From: Gammaproteobacteria bacterium
GTDB taxonomy: Bacteria > Pseudomonadota > Gammaproteobacteria > UBA4575
NCBI GenBank assembly: GCA_011523795.1
Contig: WTFY01000003.1
Span: 186,001 to 250,000 of the forward strand
Direction of reading: 5' to 3'
DNA: 64,000 nucleotides
Position 1 is the first letter of the stretch. Every line of letters starts with the position of its first letter. Positions 6,530-64,000 of this stretch are shown in pieces. Position numbers and translations under genes: made by a program. The notes under the pieces were generated by a model, which had not been told where the DNA came from, made no database searches, and worked only from the letters and a program-made list of their open reading frames with translations.

Positions 6530-8791
6530 TTACACCGTAATACGACGGTAAATATCAGACACTTTATAGGGGAGCTTGTCTACATGATCAATGACAGCAA
6601 AGCTTACAGGCCCATACATGTGCTGCAGGTAGTCCATCGCCTCTTCATCAATCGTAATGCAAAACGGATGGATGCCCAGAAACTTGGCCTCGATCAATGC
6701 GCGCCTAGTGTCCTCGATGCCATATGGACCCCGGTAACCATCCTGGTCATCGGGTCGTCCGTCTGACAATGCAATCAGAAGCTTGGTGCGGGCCTCAACC
6801 TGGTGCAGCAGTTTTGTCAGGTGACGTATGGCTGCACCCATCCGGGTATAATCCTGCGGCTGGATTCCGCTGATGCGGGCCTTTACAAGATCCCCGTACT
6901 GCTCTTCAAAATCCTTGATCTTGTACAGCTCACACCGTTCATGGGTCAGACCAGAAAAGCCAAATATCGCATAACGATCACCCAGAATCTCCAAGGACTC
7001 GCAAAGCAGGATCAATGCTTCTCTTTCCATCTCGTTGATCCATCCGGCCGTTGAGGCACTCATGTCAATCATGAACATGACAGCAATGTTCCTGTCCGTT
7101 TTCCGCGATCGAGTGAACAGGTTCTGGGAGGCTTCCAGCCCGATCCGGGTATCAGAATAGGCTTCGATCACCGCATCCAGGTCAACTTCATCGCCGTAGG
7201 GTTGCCGCTTGACTCGCCGGTCATCTTCCCGCAAGGCCTCGAATGTCCTGTGCAGGTGTTTCAACAGGCTTCTGTGCTTGTTGAGCGTCCTGTCTACGAA
7301 ATCATCGTACACCGGTTGTACAGCAAGCTCCCTGAGGTGACACCATTCTTTCCTGTATTTCTGGCGGGAATGGTCCCATTCATCGTATAGCCATCCTGTA
7401 TCTGCTTTTGCCGCAGGCTGTTCCTCTGGCGGGCGTTCATTCGAACTGTCGTCTTCATGGCTGCTGCCGGACATGTCTGTTTGTAAATACTTGTCCGGAA
7501 CCTCGCCGAGGTCCTGCAAAATGGATTCCAGCAGTTTTTGTGTTTCTTCCGATGCACCGATTGGTTCATTGTCAAACTTCAACTCAACATTGAAGCCGTC
7601 CGGCATGCTGTCGTCCGGTATTTCCTGGATGGAGAACCCTGCGGCAAGACCTTGTTCCTCGTCATTTTCAGCACTGCCAGGATCGTCAGCTCCGAACTCG
7701 CGTCTGAGTTCTTGCAGGCGCATTTGCAGCTTGGTTTTTTCCCGCGCTATTCTGGCTTGACGCACACTCCAGGCCTCAGAAGGATTCAGGCTACCTTGAT
7801 AGATTTTGTCGTCAGGGGTGTTTTCATCCTTGTACACGGCCTCGAGAAAAAATACCGTATCCAGCACGGTCATTTCAGCTCTGCGCAATGTCTCGAATGC
7901 TCGTTGCCATGTGCTGGAAAGTGTTGTGTGATCCTGTTTTGCATTGAATCTGCTCATCGCACGTGCAACGCCGGGCAATTCACGCTCGATACACGCATCC
8001 AGCCGGATGGTTTCCAGCTTGTGAAAGAGTGCAAGCGCTCGGACAGGGTCCTTGTAGAACTTGAGGTAATCGCCGATATTCAGCTTCCATGTCCCGAACC
8101 AAGACTGGGCCCATTGATGAACGACCATGGACTTGTACAAGGCAAAGTTGTCGTCGTAGTTGTCAAATTCAGCGAGCACTTCAGGAAGACGAATGGTCTG
8201 GGTATCTGTATAGAACGTTTCACCAGATTGAATTTCAAGCTTTCTTCCGCTAAGCCCTGTGACAAAGCTTTCCAGGATGCGCGAGACCTTTTCCAGGCGA
8301 ACACTGCCCGGTGATTGATTAAATGAGCGCACAAAACTGTCGATATCCTGCATCGTACGGACAGCACCGCTCATCCCCTTATCCTGATGCGCGTGCAAAA
8401 TGCGGCCAATCCAGTCGTTCCAGTGCGTTTCATCAATGACCTGCAGGCTCTCGGGAGCGAACTGGCAAAAACTGAAGGCGAGTTCAACGCTTGTCTTGGA
8501 AATTTGCTCTACAGATTCCAGGAACCGGTCCTGATCGACCTTCGAATATTCGGCAAGCCGTTCTGCCGGCTTGAAAACACTGCGCTGCGAAGAAATCACC
8601 TGGTCTACGATCAGTTCCATGCGCAGCTGCAGTTCTCTGACTCCCATGCCTCCGAAACTGGCGCTGGTAGTGAGGCCACCCTGTCTTTCCAGGGACTTGA
8701 TGTGCCCACCTTCCTTTTTGTAGGAACGGATTGCTTTTTGCTTCCTGCTCTTGGGGGCAGGGCCTGTCTTGGACTTCTTTTTCCAGAACAT
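6530..8791 (-). CDS. NorD/CbbO-like von Willebrand factor A domain protein
   Basis: 753 aa with a C-terminal VWA domain (about residues 555-750). The MIDAS metal site is visible as DMSAST, the threonine in QDYTRMG and the SDGRPDDQDGYRG loop. The DGxPxDxxxYxGxYGxxDT pattern is the hallmark of the NorD/CbbO/CoxE group. Those proteins work with a MoxR-type AAA+ ATPase (NorQ, CbbQ) to insert metals into, or remodel, nitric-oxide reductase or RuBisCO. The long N-terminal region is helical and charged, with an acidic linker around residues 380-460. No MoxR ATPase, norCB or cbbLS lies in the window, so its client is unknown. It lies in one operon with the J-domain gene upstream and the aminotransferase downstream. 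Confidence 0.8.
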   Translation of the reverse strand: MFWKKKSKTGPAPKSRKQKAIRSYKKEGGHIKSLERQGGLTTSASFGGMGVRELQLRMELIVDQVISSQRSVFKPAERLAEYSKVDQDRFLESVEQISKTSVELAFSFCQFAPESLQVIDETHWNDWIGRILHAHQDKGMSGAVRTMQDIDSFVRSFNQSPGSVRLEKVSRILESFVTGLSGRKLEIQSGETFYTDTQTIRLPEVLAEFDNYDDNFALYKSMVVHQWAQSWFGTWKLNIGDYLKFYKDPVRALALFHKLETIRLDACIERELPGVARAMSRFNAKQDHTTLSSTWQRAFETLRRAEMTVLDTVFFLEAVYKDENTPDDKIYQGSLNPSEAWSVRQARIAREKTKLQMRLQELRREFGADDPGSAENDEEQGLAAGFSIQEIPDDSMPDGFNVELKFDNEPIGASEETQKLLESILQDLGEVPDKYLQTDMSGSSHEDDSSNERPPEEQPAAKADTGWLYDEWDHSRQKYRKEWCHLRELAVQPVYDDFVDRTLNKHRSLLKHLHRTFEALREDDRRVKRQPYGDEVDLDAVIEAYSDTRIGLEASQNLFTRSRKTDRNIAVMFMIDMSASTAGWINEMEREALILLCESLEILGDRYAIFGFSGLTHERCELYKIKDFEEQYGDLVKARISGIQPQDYTRMGAAIRHLTKLLHQVEARTKLLIALSDGRPDDQDGYRGPYGIEDTRRALIEAKFLGIHPFCITIDEEAMDYLQHMYGPVSFAVIDHVDKLPYKVSDIYRRITV

Positions 8792-18647: not shown

Positions 18648-19781
18648 ATGCTCCGTGCCTTCCTCATTAGCCTAGTTCTGCTTGCATGCCCAGTACATGC
18701 AGAGAGTTTCGATGAGGAAGCTATGATAAAACATGTGGAGAGTGTTGATCTGGAAGCTTTAATGGAAGATGCGGAGCAGGGAGATATCGAAGCGCAGTTC
18801 GCGCTCGGCTTCATGTATGCCTTCGGTAAACGTGTTCAAGAAGACTATACCGAGGCTGTGCAATGGTTTCGCAAGGCCGCTGAACAAGGACATGCCTTGT
18901 CGCAACTAGCTCTTGGCGATGCCTATTACGAGGGCAAGGGGGTGCCAGAGGATGATGCAGAGGCCTCGCGCTGGTTACGCAAAGCTGCTGAGCAGGGACT
19001 TCCTGAAGCACAGTCCTACCTTAATTCCATGTATGCTAAGGGCTACGGGTTTGAAGATTATGCTGAGGCTGTGCGCTGGCATCTCAAGGCTGCCGAGCAG
19101 GGAGGGGCCAGAGCGCATTTCAAACTTGGGGACATGTATGCCTACGGCAGGGGCATCTTCCCCGACGACGATACCGAAGCCATACGCTGGTATCTCAAGG
19201 CTGCCGAGCAGGGAGGGGCTGAAGCGCATTTCAGACTTGGCGGCATCTATGAACTAGGTATGGGCATCCCCGAAGATGTTACTGAAGCCATACGCTGGTA
19301 TCGCAAAGCCGCTGAGCAAGGACATGTCCGCGCACAGTTCAACCTTGGCTACATGTATGCTGAAGGTGAAAGGATAGCCGAAGACGATACCGAAGCCATA
19401 CGCTGGTATCGCAAAGCCGCCGAGCAGGGATTTTCCCCTGCACAGTTCAGACTTGGGGAAATGTATGCATTTGGCGCAGGGACCCCCGAAGACGATACCG
19501 AAGCCGTGCGCTGGTATCGTAAAGCCGCCGAGCAGGGATTTTCCCCTGCACAATACAATCTTGGCACCATGTACGCCCAAGGTGAAGGGGTAGTCAAAGA
19601 TAGTATTCAGGCCTATGTATGGTTCAACATTGCAGCTGCACAACGCTTCGGTCCTGCTGCTGCCGCCCAAAAAGGAAAAGAACGTGTGGCCAACGGCATG
19701 ACATCTGCCCAGATTGCCGAGGCTCAGAAACTGTCACGTGAGTATTGGGAAGCTTACGGGCCTAGACACAGATCAAAATAG
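18648..19781 (+). CDS. Exported Sel1-repeat protein
   Basis: 377 aa from the ATG at 18648, which opens a clear signal peptide (MLRAFLISLVLLACPVHAES). The longer frame from 18486 would put this signal inside the protein. After it come eight tandem Sel1-like repeats of about 36 residues, each of the form G-x-x-x-A-x-x-x-L-G-x-M-Y-x-x-G...A-x-x-W-x-x-K-A-A-E-Q, between residues 40 and 330. Sel1 repeats form alpha-solenoid surfaces for protein-protein contact. Repeats four to seven are very similar in DNA as well, a sign of recent expansion. It is cargo of the tRNA-Cys element; the partner is unknown. Confidence 0.88.
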   Translation: MLRAFLISLVLLACPVHAESFDEEAMIKHVESVDLEALMEDAEQGDIEAQFALGFMYAFGKRVQEDYTEAVQWFRKAAEQGHALSQLALGDAYYEGKGVPEDDAEASRWLRKAAEQGLPEAQSYLNSMYAKGYGFEDYAEAVRWHLKAAEQGGARAHFKLGDMYAYGRGIFPDDDTEAIRWYLKAAEQGGAEAHFRLGGIYELGMGIPEDVTEAIRWYRKAAEQGHVRAQFNLGYMYAEGERIAEDDTEAIRWYRKAAEQGFSPAQFRLGEMYAFGAGTPEDDTEAVRWYRKAAEQGFSPAQYNLGTMYAQGEGVVKDSIQAYVWFNIAAAQRFGPAAAAQKGKERVANGMTSAQIAEAQKLSREYWEAYGPRHRSK

Positions 19782-58693: not shown

Positions 58694-59281
58694 ATGAACT
58701 TTTCAAAACTTGCCTATCCGGTTATCGCTGGGCTTTCCATACTCCTGATAACACCTGCTTTCGGTGACCTGGCCAAAACTGGCGACACGGCTCAAAACCA
58801 GTCAGCTGATTGCACGGTACATCCTGCATTCACTGACCCTGAAGCGATGGCTGCTGCAATGACTAATCCGGTCAAATTCAACGAATTGATGGTTGCGATC
58901 AATCACCCAGCCAATACTCAAGCACTTATGAACTGCTCTATTGATCCAAAGCAATGGGAAGCCTGGATGACGAGTTTCAGCGACCCTGCCAAGTTGACGA
59001 ATGCAATGGCACAGTTCATGAACCCCCAGACATATGTTAATTGGATGGCTGCTCCCATGAACCCGCAGTCATACCAGTTTATGTATGCGTATATGAACCC
59101 GGCATTTTATATGCAATGGATGACTGCTCTGATGAATCCGCAGTATTACCAGCCTCTGTATAAAACCATGGACTTCAGCCAAGAAGGCACAGCATGGATG
59201 TTCAACCCAAGCACTTATCAAAATATGTTTAGCTCTTTCTATACCCCTTCTGTAGCAGAAGCCACAGTAGACAAAAACTAA
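58694..59281 (+). CDS. Exported methionine-rich MNPxxY-repeat protein
   Basis: 195 aa from the ATG at 58694, which has GGGGAT six to seven bases upstream and opens a signal peptide (MNFSKLAYPVIAGLSILLIT). The mature protein is built of imperfect repeats of the type F-M-N-P-x-x-Y-x-x-W-M-x-A: DPKQWEAWMTSFSDP, MNPQTYVNWMAAPMNP, MNPQSYQFMYAYMNP and MNPAFYMQWMTALMNPQYY. Two cysteines (CTVHP, NCSIDP) could form one disulfide. I recognise no named family. The same motif recurs in the two genes at 62.4-64 kb, so this is a family of exported proteins. A strong terminator follows at 59361. Confidence 0.83.
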   Translation: MNFSKLAYPVIAGLSILLITPAFGDLAKTGDTAQNQSADCTVHPAFTDPEAMAAAMTNPVKFNELMVAINHPANTQALMNCSIDPKQWEAWMTSFSDPAKLTNAMAQFMNPQTYVNWMAAPMNPQSYQFMYAYMNPAFYMQWMTALMNPQYYQPLYKTMDFSQEGTAWMFNPSTYQNMFSSFYTPSVAEATVDKN

Positions 59282-59849: not shown

Positions 59850-60163
59850 ATCAGAATTCGCTTGAATATACAGCCAGGTAATCAGTCATTTATCAGCCTC
59901 TATCCATTTTAGTTCCGTACCCGTTTAGCGAAACCTGTAACACAGGCACAGTGCCGCCGGATCAAAGAAATTCTCATACAAGTCATCTAAAATAGCCACC
60001 ATTATCTACTGGTCTGGATAGTTTGAACGAAGCAATCAATCAGTTAGTGCGTTAGAATATTCGTGAACTTACATAGTAAACTATCGTCAAAAATTACAGT
60101 ACGGCCTGTATTGGCTAGATGACAGATGTGTACATTTCACATCACCAATCTCAAGGGGACGCC

Positions 60164-60616
60164 ATGGACATTTCGAAAAGAAGATTCATCCAATACCAGC
60201 TTTGCATAGGCATATTTGCCTTAAGTTCAGGCGTAATACCACGAGCCTGGGCAAAATGGCCGTCAGCAGCGTTTGATGAAACTGAATACTTGCCCGCGTT
60301 AAAAGGGCTAATCGGCGATCAGGAACTGCTTGATGGACACGTAGAGCTGAATGTACCTGATATCGCTGAAAATGGCGCGACGGTGCCTGTAAAGATTTCA
60401 ACGGACCTGGATAACGTCGAATGGATAAGTATCATGGGTGACAAGAATCCAAGACCCTGGATTTCAAGGTTTTATTTTCACGGAAAATCCAAGCCCTATG
60501 TCTCTACACGCATCAAATTGCGTGAGACCTCGCATGTAGTTGCCATCATCAAGGCAGAAGGCAAACTGTACAGCGCGAAAAGTGCAGTAAGAGTTACCGC
60601 GGGCGGTTGTGTCTAA
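60164..60616 (+). CDS. soxY: Sulfur-oxidation carrier protein SoxY (variant C-terminus)
   Basis: 150 aa from the ATG at 60164, preceded by AAGGGG at a good distance; an in-frame ATG at 60119 would put 15 residues before the signal. A twin-arginine-type signal (SKRRFIQYQLCIGIFALSSG) leads to the periplasm. SoxY carries sulfur intermediates on a cysteine in a flexible C-terminal GGCGG tail, with SoxZ as partner. Here the tail is TAGGCV, so the carrier Cys is present but the terminal GG is replaced by a single Val. soxZ follows 24 bases later. SoxA, SoxB, SoxX and SoxCD are not in the window. Confidence 0.88.
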   Translation: MDISKRRFIQYQLCIGIFALSSGVIPRAWAKWPSAAFDETEYLPALKGLIGDQELLDGHVELNVPDIAENGATVPVKISTDLDNVEWISIMGDKNPRPWISRFYFHGKSKPYVSTRIKLRETSHVVAIIKAEGKLYSAKSAVRVTAGGCV

Positions 60617-60640: not shown

Positions 60641-60955
60641 ATGTCTCAAAAAATGAAAATCAGAGCCAAAGTGAAAAACGGAATAACCACAGTTAAGGCC
60701 ATACTTTATCACCCCATGGAATCTGGAAGCAGGAAAGATCCTGACACTGGAGAGCTAGTTCCGGCTCACTTTATCAAAAATGTCCAGGCAGCATTAAATG
60801 GAGAAGTGATCATCTCTGCAGAATGGGGAACAGGGATTTCGAAAAATCCCTATTGGTCATTTGAATTTGAAGGGGGCAATCCCGGGGATATTGTGACGAT
60901 CAGCTGGACTGACAATCTTGGAGAATCAGGTACAGGAGAAGCGGAGATCAAGTAA
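60641..60955 (+). CDS. soxZ: Sulfur-oxidation protein SoxZ
   Basis: 104 aa, immunoglobulin-like fold, heterodimer partner of SoxY. Typical segments are MKIRAKVKNGITTVKAILYHPMESG, given here as separate conserved blocks MKIRAKVKNG and VKAILYHPMESG, then GELVPAHFIKNVQ and GISKNPYWSFEFEG with GDIVTISWTDNLGE at the end. No signal peptide: as in other bacteria it is exported together with SoxY. It converges with the transporter gene 21 bases later. Confidence 0.93.
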   Translation: MSQKMKIRAKVKNGITTVKAILYHPMESGSRKDPDTGELVPAHFIKNVQAALNGEVIISAEWGTGISKNPYWSFEFEGGNPGDIVTISWTDNLGESGTGEAEIK

Positions 60956-60976: not shown

Positions 60977-62122
60977 TTAGGTTGCCTGTTTCTTCCACGG
61001 CCTGAGCAGTTCCAGCAATGACGTGGCCAATGCAGTAAAGAATCCTTTCTCATCCAAGATGTGGTACTGAACTTTCATTGTAAGCGCACTGCCAAAGATA
61101 ATTGAACCCAGGGCAAGAATTGACCCCATCGCCAATGTAGACATTCCAGTCACCCCCTGCCCTATCGTGCACCCGAATGAAAGCACGCCACCGAATCCCA
61201 TCAGAACTGCGCCAATCAAATGGCTGGTCATCTCAGACTTGTTGCTGAATGTCTCAATCCTGAATGACCTTGATACAAGGGCATAGAGAAAGGAACCAGT
61301 AATCATCCCAAACGCAATCGCAATGCCAAAATTGATCTGAGCGCCTGTAAAAGTCATCAGATAGCTGATTGCATTTCCTGTTGGACCGATAAAGGCCATG
61401 CCCTGGGGCATGACCGGTTCAAAGTCATCCTGGCCTACATAGCCGGTTACATACCATGCCGCAACCACGCATACGCCGATTATGACCCCTGCAAGAATAT
61501 TGTCGAAACTTCTGCGGAATTCCTTGTGTATAAAAGCATAGGTTATGAAACCTCCAGCCAGTACTACACCGATGATTACCCTCAGCCAAGCTGTATTCTC
61601 GAGGTTCAGAAGCGACCCCAGGTAGCTGATCAGGCTTTGGTCGTTTATGCCTTGGCTCGTAAGATCAGCATTGACAGCATAAACCCAGTTCAAACGCACG
61701 ACCGCCAACAGGCCTCGCATGGTCATATAGGCGGTTATGCCCAGCACTATAATCACGACGAGTGCCTTTAAGTTTCCACCACCGAGTCGAATTAAATTCC
61801 GTTGCCCGCAGCCGGCCGCCAATGTCATGCCAATTCCAAATAGAATCCCTCCAAGGATATAGCTGAGGATGTAAAAATTAGGTGAGAGATAGATTGACGC
61901 ATTCAGGTCCACGAGTCCCTGGAAAAACAAGAACTGTGCCCCAAGTATTGCTACACCAATTGCCAGGAACCAGGCTCCTAAACGGCCTTTTGACCCCATG
62001 TTGATCACGTCACTGATCGCACCCATTGAACAAAAGTGAGTTTTGTTTCCAATAAAGCCAAATACAGCGGCTATGATAAAACCAAGTATTGCTACCAGAT
62101 GAAGGTTAGAAAATTCTTCCAT
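60977..62122 (-). CDS. YeeE/YedE (TsuA-like) thiosulfate/sulfur-compound transporter
   Basis: 381 aa, about ten membrane helices in two YeeE/YedE repeats. The transport cysteines lie in KTHFCSMGAISD (first half), TLAAGCGQRNLIR and SFGCTIGQGVTG (second half). In the TsuA family these form a path for thiosulfate. A GAGGTGAC ribosome site precedes the ATG at 62122. Its place next to soxYZ fits uptake or exchange of thiosulfate or sulfur compounds. Sulfite or another sulfur anion cannot be excluded. Confidence 0.88.
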   Translation of the reverse strand: MEEFSNLHLVAILGFIIAAVFGFIGNKTHFCSMGAISDVINMGSKGRLGAWFLAIGVAILGAQFLFFQGLVDLNASIYLSPNFYILSYILGGILFGIGMTLAAGCGQRNLIRLGGGNLKALVVIIVLGITAYMTMRGLLAVVRLNWVYAVNADLTSQGINDQSLISYLGSLLNLENTAWLRVIIGVVLAGGFITYAFIHKEFRRSFDNILAGVIIGVCVVAAWYVTGYVGQDDFEPVMPQGMAFIGPTGNAISYLMTFTGAQINFGIAIAFGMITGSFLYALVSRSFRIETFSNKSEMTSHLIGAVLMGFGGVLSFGCTIGQGVTGMSTLAMGSILALGSIIFGSALTMKVQYHILDEKGFFTALATSLLELLRPWKKQAT

Positions 62123-62437: not shown

Positions 62438-63172
62438 TTACTCAGTCTTGGACCCAGAATTAGGAAGGAAGTTTTTCATCATGTCTGTCCATTGATCGTA
62501 CCACTGCTTATGCTGTTCAGTATCCATTTGCGGGCTTCCGGGAGACTGTGGTGATTGTCCTCCATAGCCAGGCATTGGGGGCATCATACCCATAGGGTTC
62601 ATCATCGGATTTCCCATCATGGGGTTCATCATGTTCATGTACATCGCAGGATTCATCATGTTCATATACATCCCGGGATTCATCATGTTCATGTACATCG
62701 CAGGATTCATCATGGATCCCATCATGGGGCCCATCATTGGCCCCATCATTCCCATCATCGGATACATCATGTTCATGTACATTGCAGGATTCATCATCCC
62801 GCCAAAGGAACCCATATAGGTATTTGGATTCATCATAGAAGTCATCGCGTGAGGATTCATCATTGCCTTGTAGGGTTGCCACATCATATCCAGCATAGGC
62901 CCGAAGCTGGCATGGTACTCAGCTATTTCCTGGGGTTCATGACATAGCGCGCAAGCATCTAGAGACGATGAATTTTGAGGGTTCATCATGATCGCCATCA
63001 TCTGCATCCATACGTTGGGGTCCATGGAGTGTTGCATTGCCTTCGACATGCCTAATGGAGCAGAATCTGCTTGCGGGGTTGGTGTTTCCTCAGCATGTAA
63101 GCCGGTGACGCAAGCAGTAAGTAGGCAACTAGCAATCAATACCCGTCGAAGCAGTCTATTATTAAATAACAT
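62438..63172 (-). CDS. Exported methionine-rich protein with a CxxCH haem site
   Basis: 244 aa from the ATG at 63172 (AAGGGA ribosome site). A signal peptide (RRVLIASCLLTACVTGLHA) is followed by SMDPNVWMQMMAIMMNPQN and a c-type haem motif CALCH in LDACALCHEPQEIAE. After that comes a long methionine-rich region (roughly residues 105-205) with repeats of MNPAMYMNM, MNPGMYMNM and MMGPMMG, and a Pro/Gly/Gln-rich end. Many methionines in the repeats are spaced as in copper-binding proteins, but metal binding is an inference. It lies 39 bases after the DUF302 gene in the same operon. I know no named family for the full architecture. Confidence 0.85.
   Translation of the reverse strand: MLFNNRLLRRVLIASCLLTACVTGLHAEETPTPQADSAPLGMSKAMQHSMDPNVWMQMMAIMMNPQNSSSLDACALCHEPQEIAEYHASFGPMLDMMWQPYKAMMNPHAMTSMMNPNTYMGSFGGMMNPAMYMNMMYPMMGMMGPMMGPMMGSMMNPAMYMNMMNPGMYMNMMNPAMYMNMMNPMMGNPMMNPMGMMPPMPGYGGQSPQSPGSPQMDTEQHKQWYDQWTDMMKNFLPNSGSKTE
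62622..62786 (-). repeat. 27-bp coding repeat (MNPAMYMNM unit)
   Basis: Units at 62622-62648, 62649-62675 and 62676-62702 are near-identical at DNA level (GGATTCATCATGTTCATG start in plus strand), and a further copy is at 62760-62786. They encode the nine-residue motif of the Met-rich protein. High DNA identity suggests recent expansion by slippage. Confidence 0.75.
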
Positions 63173-63211: not shown

Positions 63212-64000
63212 TCAAAACTCGCCTGTTGCAGCGCCTTCCATAATGTAAGTCATTGCCTCGCGAATTCTGATTGCATCCTGACGCAAATCTTTAGCCAAAT
63301 GCGAGTTCGGATTTTGAGCAAAATCAAGCCATTCAATACTCCAGTCCATGGTCATGACCCACAGCTTGCCCTCACCATCCTCAATCAATGAAATCTGGCA
63401 CGGCAGGAATATAACAAATTCTGGAATTTCGTCTAAGATTTTTCGAGCAACTGCCGCATCACAGAAACGAAACATCTCGACCTTGGCTGAAGGTTTTTCC
63501 GTGACTGCTTCAATTTCTTTCCACAGTGGGCTCGAACCAACAAACTTGAAGTTCAGCTCATTCGCACGGAGCTTCATGGCCTCCACAGCATCATCCCAGG
63601 AGACGTCTTCCTGAACAGGCATCTTGTCAGTCATGATACTGATCATGTCACGCATGGAAAGCGGACTGAAGGCCATCGCAGTTTGAAAGGCATTCTTCTT
63701 GGCTTCACGGGACACTCCGGGAGATACCTTGTTTTTCGGCCAGTTTTGATAATTCTGGGTCGGGAAAAACGGGATTCTTACAGCCGGCAAATGCTCTGGA
63801 ACTTTGCCTCCCCTGTAAGCAGAACCCGCATGGCCGAACATGCCAAACAAAAGATGTGGATTCATCGAGCGCATCATCATGTCCATGGCCCATGGTTGCG
63901 TCATCATGTCTACAGGAAAGTTATACATGGTCCCCATCATTCCCATCATCGGATACATCATGCCCATGTAGGCTGCAGGGTTTAGCATAGTGAAGGGGTT
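63212..64000 (-). CDS. Methionine-rich DUF302 protein, 5' end outside window
   Basis: The frame is open to the right edge and reads NPFTMLNPAAYMG at the boundary, so the true start lies beyond base 64000. The visible 262 residues begin with a Met-rich segment (MLNPAAYMGMMYPMMGMMG, MNPHLLFGMFGHAG) like those of the neighbouring genes, then a linker. A DUF302 domain follows (VSWDDAVEAMKLRANELNF, FVIFLPCQISLIEDGEGKL and the MTMDWSIEWL end). DUF302 proteins are small alpha/beta proteins, often linked to sulfur metabolism; their function is unknown. It is first in a unit with the Met-rich haem protein. Confidence 0.85.
   Translation of the reverse strand, partial: NPFTMLNPAAYMGMMYPMMGMMGTMYNFPVDMMTQPWAMDMMMRSMNPHLLFGMFGHAGSAYRGGKVPEHLPAVRIPFFPTQNYQNWPKNKVSPGVSREAKKNAFQTAMAFSPLSMRDMISIMTDKMPVQEDVSWDDAVEAMKLRANELNFKFVGSSPLWKEIEAVTEKPSAKVEMFRFCDAAVARKILDEIPEFVIFLPCQISLIEDGEGKLWVMTMDWSIEWLDFAQNPNSHLAKDLRQDAIRIREAMTYIMEGAATGEF

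Follow-up and report, generated by a model that had tools for sequence, protein, structure and literature searches.

The window, by which we mean the whole stretch of 64,000 nucleotides that was analysed, carries towards its end a gene for a methionine-rich protein with one haem-binding motif. The features discussed below are as follows.

58694 to 59281, plus strand: MNP58, built of M-N-P-x-x-[YF] units, haem-free and starting like a signal peptide (from sequence)
60119 to 60616, plus strand: soxY (TIGR04488, over cut-off)
60641 to 60955, plus strand: soxZ (TIGR04490, over cut-off)
60977 to 62122, minus strand: YeeE/TsuA-type membrane protein, PF04143 Sulf_transp (Pfam; under the cut-off of the NCBIfam TsuA models)
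62438 to 63172, minus strand: coding sequence of the Met-rich monohaem protein, 244 aa (ORF list)
63092 to 63172, minus strand: signal-peptide-like N-terminus, residues 1 to 27, ending LHA before EE (by eye from the sequence and the homologue alignment)
62858 to 63061, minus strand: conserved haem segment, residues 38 to 105, with invariant P52, V54, M62, C74, C77, H78, A84 and G91 (homologue alignment)
62939 to 62953, minus strand: CxxCH haem-c attachment motif CALCH, residues 74 to 78 (sequence)
62528 to 62863, minus strand: Met-rich array and Gly/Pro/Ser tail, residues 104 to 215, 38% Met (sequence)
62768 to 62794, minus strand: separate fourth copy of the MNPAMYMNM unit, 1 nt different and 57 bp away from the tandem units (sequence comparison)
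62625 to 62714, minus strand: 27-bp tandem repeat, 3.3 copies, 90% matches (TRF)
62468 to 62527, minus strand: C-terminal motif, residues 216 to 235, MDTEQHKQWYDQW..., like that of the haem-free paralogues (alignment; too divergent for the strict motif pattern)
63212 to 64000, minus strand: the next gene, a DUF302 protein with its own Met-rich arm, running off the window (PF03625, 38.1 bits, cut-off 23)

In the genome of the window, the genes run in the order MNP58, SirB, soxY, soxZ, Sulf_transp (TsuA-like), haem protein and DUF302, continue with a NapC-type tetrahaem protein, a dihaem cytochrome c and the flavoprotein of flavocytochrome c sulfide dehydrogenase, and end with a Tll0287-like protein with one CxxCH, Rrf2 and DsrE2. 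Given this location among sulfide-oxidation genes, the protein may take part in the extracytoplasmic handling of sulfur. The whole DUF302 protein has 365 aa (L037:9212-10309; PF03625, 37.5 bits), and PDB sequence searches with it and with its alignment returned nothing. The Tll0287-like protein (PF11845; L037:13143-13868, beyond the window) is also found in the clusters of G002 and G003 and is perhaps a haem sensor. Elsewhere in the window, positions 19074 to 19600 hold a tandem array of ∼108-bp units (4.7 copies, 76% matches) that resemble Sel1-type repeats.

The initial annotation had pointed to a CxxCH motif together with dozens of Met residues, and the ORF does combine CALCH, which lies outside the positions that it gave, with 57 Met among 244 residues. 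The protein is probably an exported monohaem c-type protein: the signal-like start, judged by eye and ending at a nearly invariant A27, points to export, and together with CxxCH it would imply periplasmic haem attachment. Judging from the homologue alignment, a flexible Met/Pro-rich array of variable length joins the haem segment to the C-terminal motif. No Pfam family was matched at E ≤ 1; NCBIfam gave three weak matches, all far under cut-off, the best being SorU (E 0.05; 13.9 bits, cut-off 100), and the best PDB sequence had an E value of 0.26. Like monohaem c-type cytochromes, the protein has one CxxCH after a signal-like start; unlike them, it has a short haem segment, a Met array and a C-terminal motif covered by no matched model. 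By these searches, it belongs to a family without a name that fits no described cytochrome c family model. In the open-licence PMC literature, none of six 7-letter peptides of such repeats was present, no Met-rich repeat protein was tied to sulfur globules, and none of the titles and abstract openings listed by broader searches dealt with a protein of this kind. Structure prediction, which the initial annotation had suggested, gave an AlphaFold2 model that is unusable (mean pLDDT, 44.1; <50 across residues 100 to 216), with the array mostly coil at low confidence. The model of MNP58 has a mean pLDDT of 46.7 with no residue reaching 70, and both models are too poor for a fold search; in the low-confidence MNP58 model, 10 of 11 helices begin at a proline, mostly that of an Asn-Pro or Asp-Pro step.

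At the DNA level, three units lie head to tail on the minus strand, encoding MNPAMYMNM (62684 to 62710), MNPGMYMNM (62657 to 62683) and MNPAMYMNM (62630 to 62656). The two MNPAMYMNM units are identical in DNA and the middle one differs by 3 nt, which, with the TRF period of 27, bears out the report of a 27-bp unit repeated almost unchanged. Met has a single codon, so part of this identity is forced. Full identity between two random synonymous encodings of MNPAMYMNM nevertheless has a chance of only ∼0.009, a value that uses approximate local codon usage from mechanical ORFs of ≥200 aa, and the longest exact DNA repeat inside the gene is 36 nt; we therefore conclude that the DNA was duplicated, beyond similarity at the protein level. 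The initial annotation had also called the array expanding. Duplication within the gene stands, while expansion rests on differences between species, the window species being represented by one strain.

A search with the haem protein in its own genome found itself and the Met arm of the adjoining DUF302 gene (E 1.8e-6), and 15 of 94 related genomes were matched. We kept 12 of these. Two matches, G035 and G046 (E 1.7e-4 and 3.9e-4), were rejected because the stretches concerned (L015, L016) hold no ORF of >100 aa having >5% Met and MNP units; G035 also had no match to a haem-segment profile. The third, G008, is cut off by a contig edge, so that just its array and C-terminus are present, and was excluded from haem counts. 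In a class sample of 369 genomes, the haem-segment profile matched 6, of which G230 and G342 were new, and in a phylum sample it matched 1 of 398, the window's own genome; scans of the families around G342 (1/4) and G230 (1/2) matched the query genomes alone. The carriers thus number 14 genomes of four families: 11 in f1, the family of the window, plus G032, G230 and G342. Seven of the 19 f1 genomes had no match. Many genomes are fragmented assemblies, which can break repeats, and loci L031 to L036, which share contigs with L038, L042, L048, L046, L049 and L047, respectively, were counted once.

Across these homologues, the haem segment and the array behave very differently. CxxCH is kept in all 14, and P52, V54, M62, A84 and G91 (window numbering) are likewise invariant. 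There is no invariant His other than that of CxxCH, and M62, which is close to the haem motif and not part of the array, is by its invariance a candidate for the sixth ligand. Thirteen of the 14 have an array of 54 to 206 aa with 38 to 50% Met between haem segment and C-terminal motif; the exception, G342, has 13 aa there and a C-terminus that resembles the motif by eye only. The 13 arrays have 12 different lengths, so neither of the two outcomes that the initial annotation had named as contrary to its proposal, a fixed repeat number and an unconserved haem motif, was found. The arrays are repetitive, and their prolines recur at regular intervals among dense Met pairs and M-x-x-M spacings. Repeat periods vary (e.g., 27, 111, 18, 57, 45, 33 and 42 nt), with the same period in some genomes, and the longest exact DNA repeats reach at least 120 nt in G012 (the ceiling of the search), 92 in G230, 83 in G002 and 68 in G014, down to just 17 to 19 nt in G016 and G006. 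From the varied lengths and periods and the exact DNA repeats, with the ends kept, we conclude that, as read from these sequences, the Met-rich array is repeatedly rebuilt by duplication of short DNA units while its composition and both flanks are kept.

The array is shared with proteins that lack haem. Haem-free neighbours have both the array units and the C-terminal motif in common with the haem protein: 23 Met-rich ORFs, spread over 19 loci, finish with a motif like MDPKQYEQWFNQW. CxxCH is present in 11 of them and absent from 12, although two of the latter (L047:6163-6444 and L050:2-340) are cut by contig ends and may be missing their haem part. This count leaves out the window protein and those of L039 and L066, which diverge too far to fit the pattern. 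At their loci, the four g3 genomes have extra haem-free MNP genes. Proteins of the MNP58 type were found in 8 of the 369 class genomes, seven of which have dsrA (P 0.0017); in the exception, G110, the MNP58-type gene is present and no dsrA was found. A second MNP58-type gene of the window's genome lies on another contig (L056:8136-8816). We also observed a third kind of MNP protein, haem-free and built of very regular MNPAxYMxxM/W-like units (L051:7078-7749 and 7809-8501, L065:7118-7735, L080:1562-2221, L081:792-1436 and L053:6190-6702); in L051, L080 and L081 these genes are near an MNP58-type gene. On the evidence of these ORFs, the array is not specific to haem proteins. As it is common to different kinds of protein at one locus, its role should be something they share, either self-association or contact with a common material.

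To describe the setting in other genomes, neighbours were named by BLAST to proteins of the window cluster, which left many unnamed. The DUF302 gene adjoins the haem gene in 13 of 14 loci, and a YeeE/TsuA-type gene is near it in 11 of 12 (L042 and L046, with a contig edge on that side, are excluded), including L051, where the TsuA-like protein is 39% identical and ∼4 kb away; no TsuA-like gene was found by BLAST in L066, the G342 locus. DsrE2 is found in 11 of 14 loci, soxYZ in 7 and the NapC-type protein with FccAB in 7. These counts are lower bounds, because the loci are of unequal length and several stop at contig ends. Beside the array-free haem gene of G342, BLAST recognised no cluster gene; two RND-transporter-like ORFs, identified by eye, lie directly next to it (L066:2823-9292). 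Heavy-metal RND efflux-like ORFs, also seen by eye, occur in the window's genome on a contig other than those with Met-rich genes (L058:9514-15473, G000:C9). No copper gene is among the window-cluster families that Pfam and NCBIfam could name, and the named neighbours belong mostly to sulfur oxidation and redox functions. DUF302 is fused to a Met-rich arm in f1 genomes, while the DUF302 proteins of G032 and G230 have no MNP unit. The longest exact DNA that the haem and DUF302 genes share within a genome exceeds that with every other genome in 3 of 13 cases (G000, G002 and G017), which we do not regard as a sign of gene conversion.

By gene content, the carriers are probably sulfur oxidisers. 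All 14 have dsrA over cut-off, as against none of 14 genomes used as controls. Across the class sample, dsrA at E ≤ 1e-60 was found in 6 of 6 carriers versus 117 of 369 genomes overall (112 over cut-off; Fisher P 0.0009), a link that rests on four taxonomic families and, at one vote per family, has a crude chance of ∼0.01. Six of the seven f1 genomes without a haem-protein match, some of them fragmented assemblies, also have dsrA over cut-off, and the haem protein is therefore not required for oxidation by reverse Dsr (rDsr). Over cut-off, soxC was detected in one of 14 carriers (G230, a genome with 4% contamination) and in none of 14 controls; weaker matches, under cut-off, occur in G006, G014 and G032. 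Having rDsr in the absence of SoxCD characterises bacteria that form sulfur globules, and rDsr oxidisers that lack SoxCD store sulfur.

Taken together, the conserved CxxCH, the variable array, the shared units and motif, the sulfur-gene neighbourhood and dsrA in the carriers are consistent with a periplasmic matrix or scaffold that would hold sulfur and include a haem electron relay, working like sulfur globule proteins; we give this reading a probability of about 0.4. The sulfur globule proteins of Allochromatium vinosum are exported and repetitive with regularly spaced prolines, SgpA-C being extremely hydrophobic (as described in the available part of PMC10386293). By that description, the present proteins are like SgpA-D in low complexity, in regularly spaced prolines and in an rDsr sulfur oxidiser as host, with export here predicted. 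The loops of SgpD are also predicted at low confidence, as is the present array; in contrast to the present protein, SgpD includes two very confidently predicted helices, and haem is not mentioned for Sgp in the available part of PMC10386293. The term SoxCD is absent from that article. The neighbours have precedents as well. A DUF302 gene lies between soxA and soxB in several sulfur oxidisers, according to the sections available of PMC5037610 and PMC5248467; the gene adjoining the haem gene likewise matches DUF302 over cut-off, and the Met-rich arm fused to it in f1 genomes (not in G032 and G230) sets it apart from the DUF302 proteins of sox clusters. Sulfur import is reported for YeeE-type proteins in the portions available of PMC11582611 and PMC13293266, and as in the import with DsrE/TusA carriers described there, our loci have a YeeE-type membrane protein with a DsrE-type carrier nearby. 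Here, unlike in those systems, they are linked to a DUF302 protein and to a haem protein rich in Met; the main text of neither article contains "DUF302" or "methionine".

Other functions must be weighed against the sulfur matrix. In a tethered electron shuttle, the array could do no more than space the haem segment from the C-terminal motif, as a flexible linker whose length can be adjusted and whose Met content is incidental. Lengths from 13 to 206 aa with both ends kept, and a model that is mostly coil at low confidence, agree with a spacer, whereas 38 to 50% Met in 13 arrays despite varying length and period, which a plain spacer need not show, and the same kind of composition in haem-free paralogues make it unlikely. 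A periplasmic Cu(I) buffer, akin to the copper sponge of the initial annotation, in which closely spaced Met would bind Cu(I) and the haem would act as its redox partner or as a sensor, would account for the dense Met pairs and M-x-x-M spacings, which are similar to those of Met-rich copper-binding segments, and would suit the RND-like ORFs seen by eye beside the G342 haem gene and, of heavy-metal type, elsewhere in the window's genome. We consider it distinctly unlikely, since no copper gene is among the named neighbours and the recurrent ones are sulfur genes.

Two further proposals concern the chemistry of Met itself. Array Met might be reversibly oxidised to sulfoxide and so shield periplasmic sulfur enzymes from oxidants, with the haem perhaps a peroxidase; a high Met content in a region modelled mostly as coil is compatible with this, yet the families identified in the window cluster include no methionine sulfoxide reductase, and we give the idea little chance. 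The initial annotation had proposed that the array modulates haem ligation, in which case its Met would be interchangeable distal ligands. Met is a common distal haem ligand, and the lack of an invariant His besides that of CxxCH would leave room for it. Such arrays also occur in haem-free proteins, however, a haem homologue without an array exists (G342), and all 14 homologues share M62, a residue near CxxCH that does not belong to the array, so tuning of ligation by the array is the most unlikely of all.

Under the preferred reading of a periplasmic sulfur matrix, the haem protein, the DUF302 protein and the haem-free MNP proteins would, once exported, assemble around polysulfide or S0, perhaps as a sulfur globule. 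The recurrent neighbours, being sulfur genes, suggest that the material contacted by the arrays is reduced sulfur. Thioether side chains and regularly spaced prolines would make a sulfur-compatible, self-associating coat, in which the C-terminal motif may dock matrix members to one another. The attached haem would accept the electrons released when sulfide is oxidised in the periplasm; in some genomes their source would be the flavocytochrome c sulfide dehydrogenase encoded in the same cluster. The sulfur would then enter the cytoplasm through the YeeE-type transporter and be passed to DsrE2 and reverse Dsr. Against the matrix, the RND-like ORFs beside the G342 haem gene would suit a role in export or with metals. 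More doubtful is a haem-wired sulfur store, in which the haem member of a Met-rich self-associating coat would conduct electrons to or from the stored sulfur and rapid turnover of DNA repeats would tune matrix length.

How extracytoplasmic sulfur is built up, held and re-oxidised is known mainly from purple sulfur bacteria. The set of DUF302 protein, YeeE-type membrane protein, DsrE-type carrier and Met-rich haem protein is a concrete candidate for an extracytoplasmic sulfur step, and as a recurrent gene set it gives DUF302, a domain of unknown function, a functional setting. The locus also offers a clear natural case of a protein array that has been remade many times yet retains its composition and the segments on either side.
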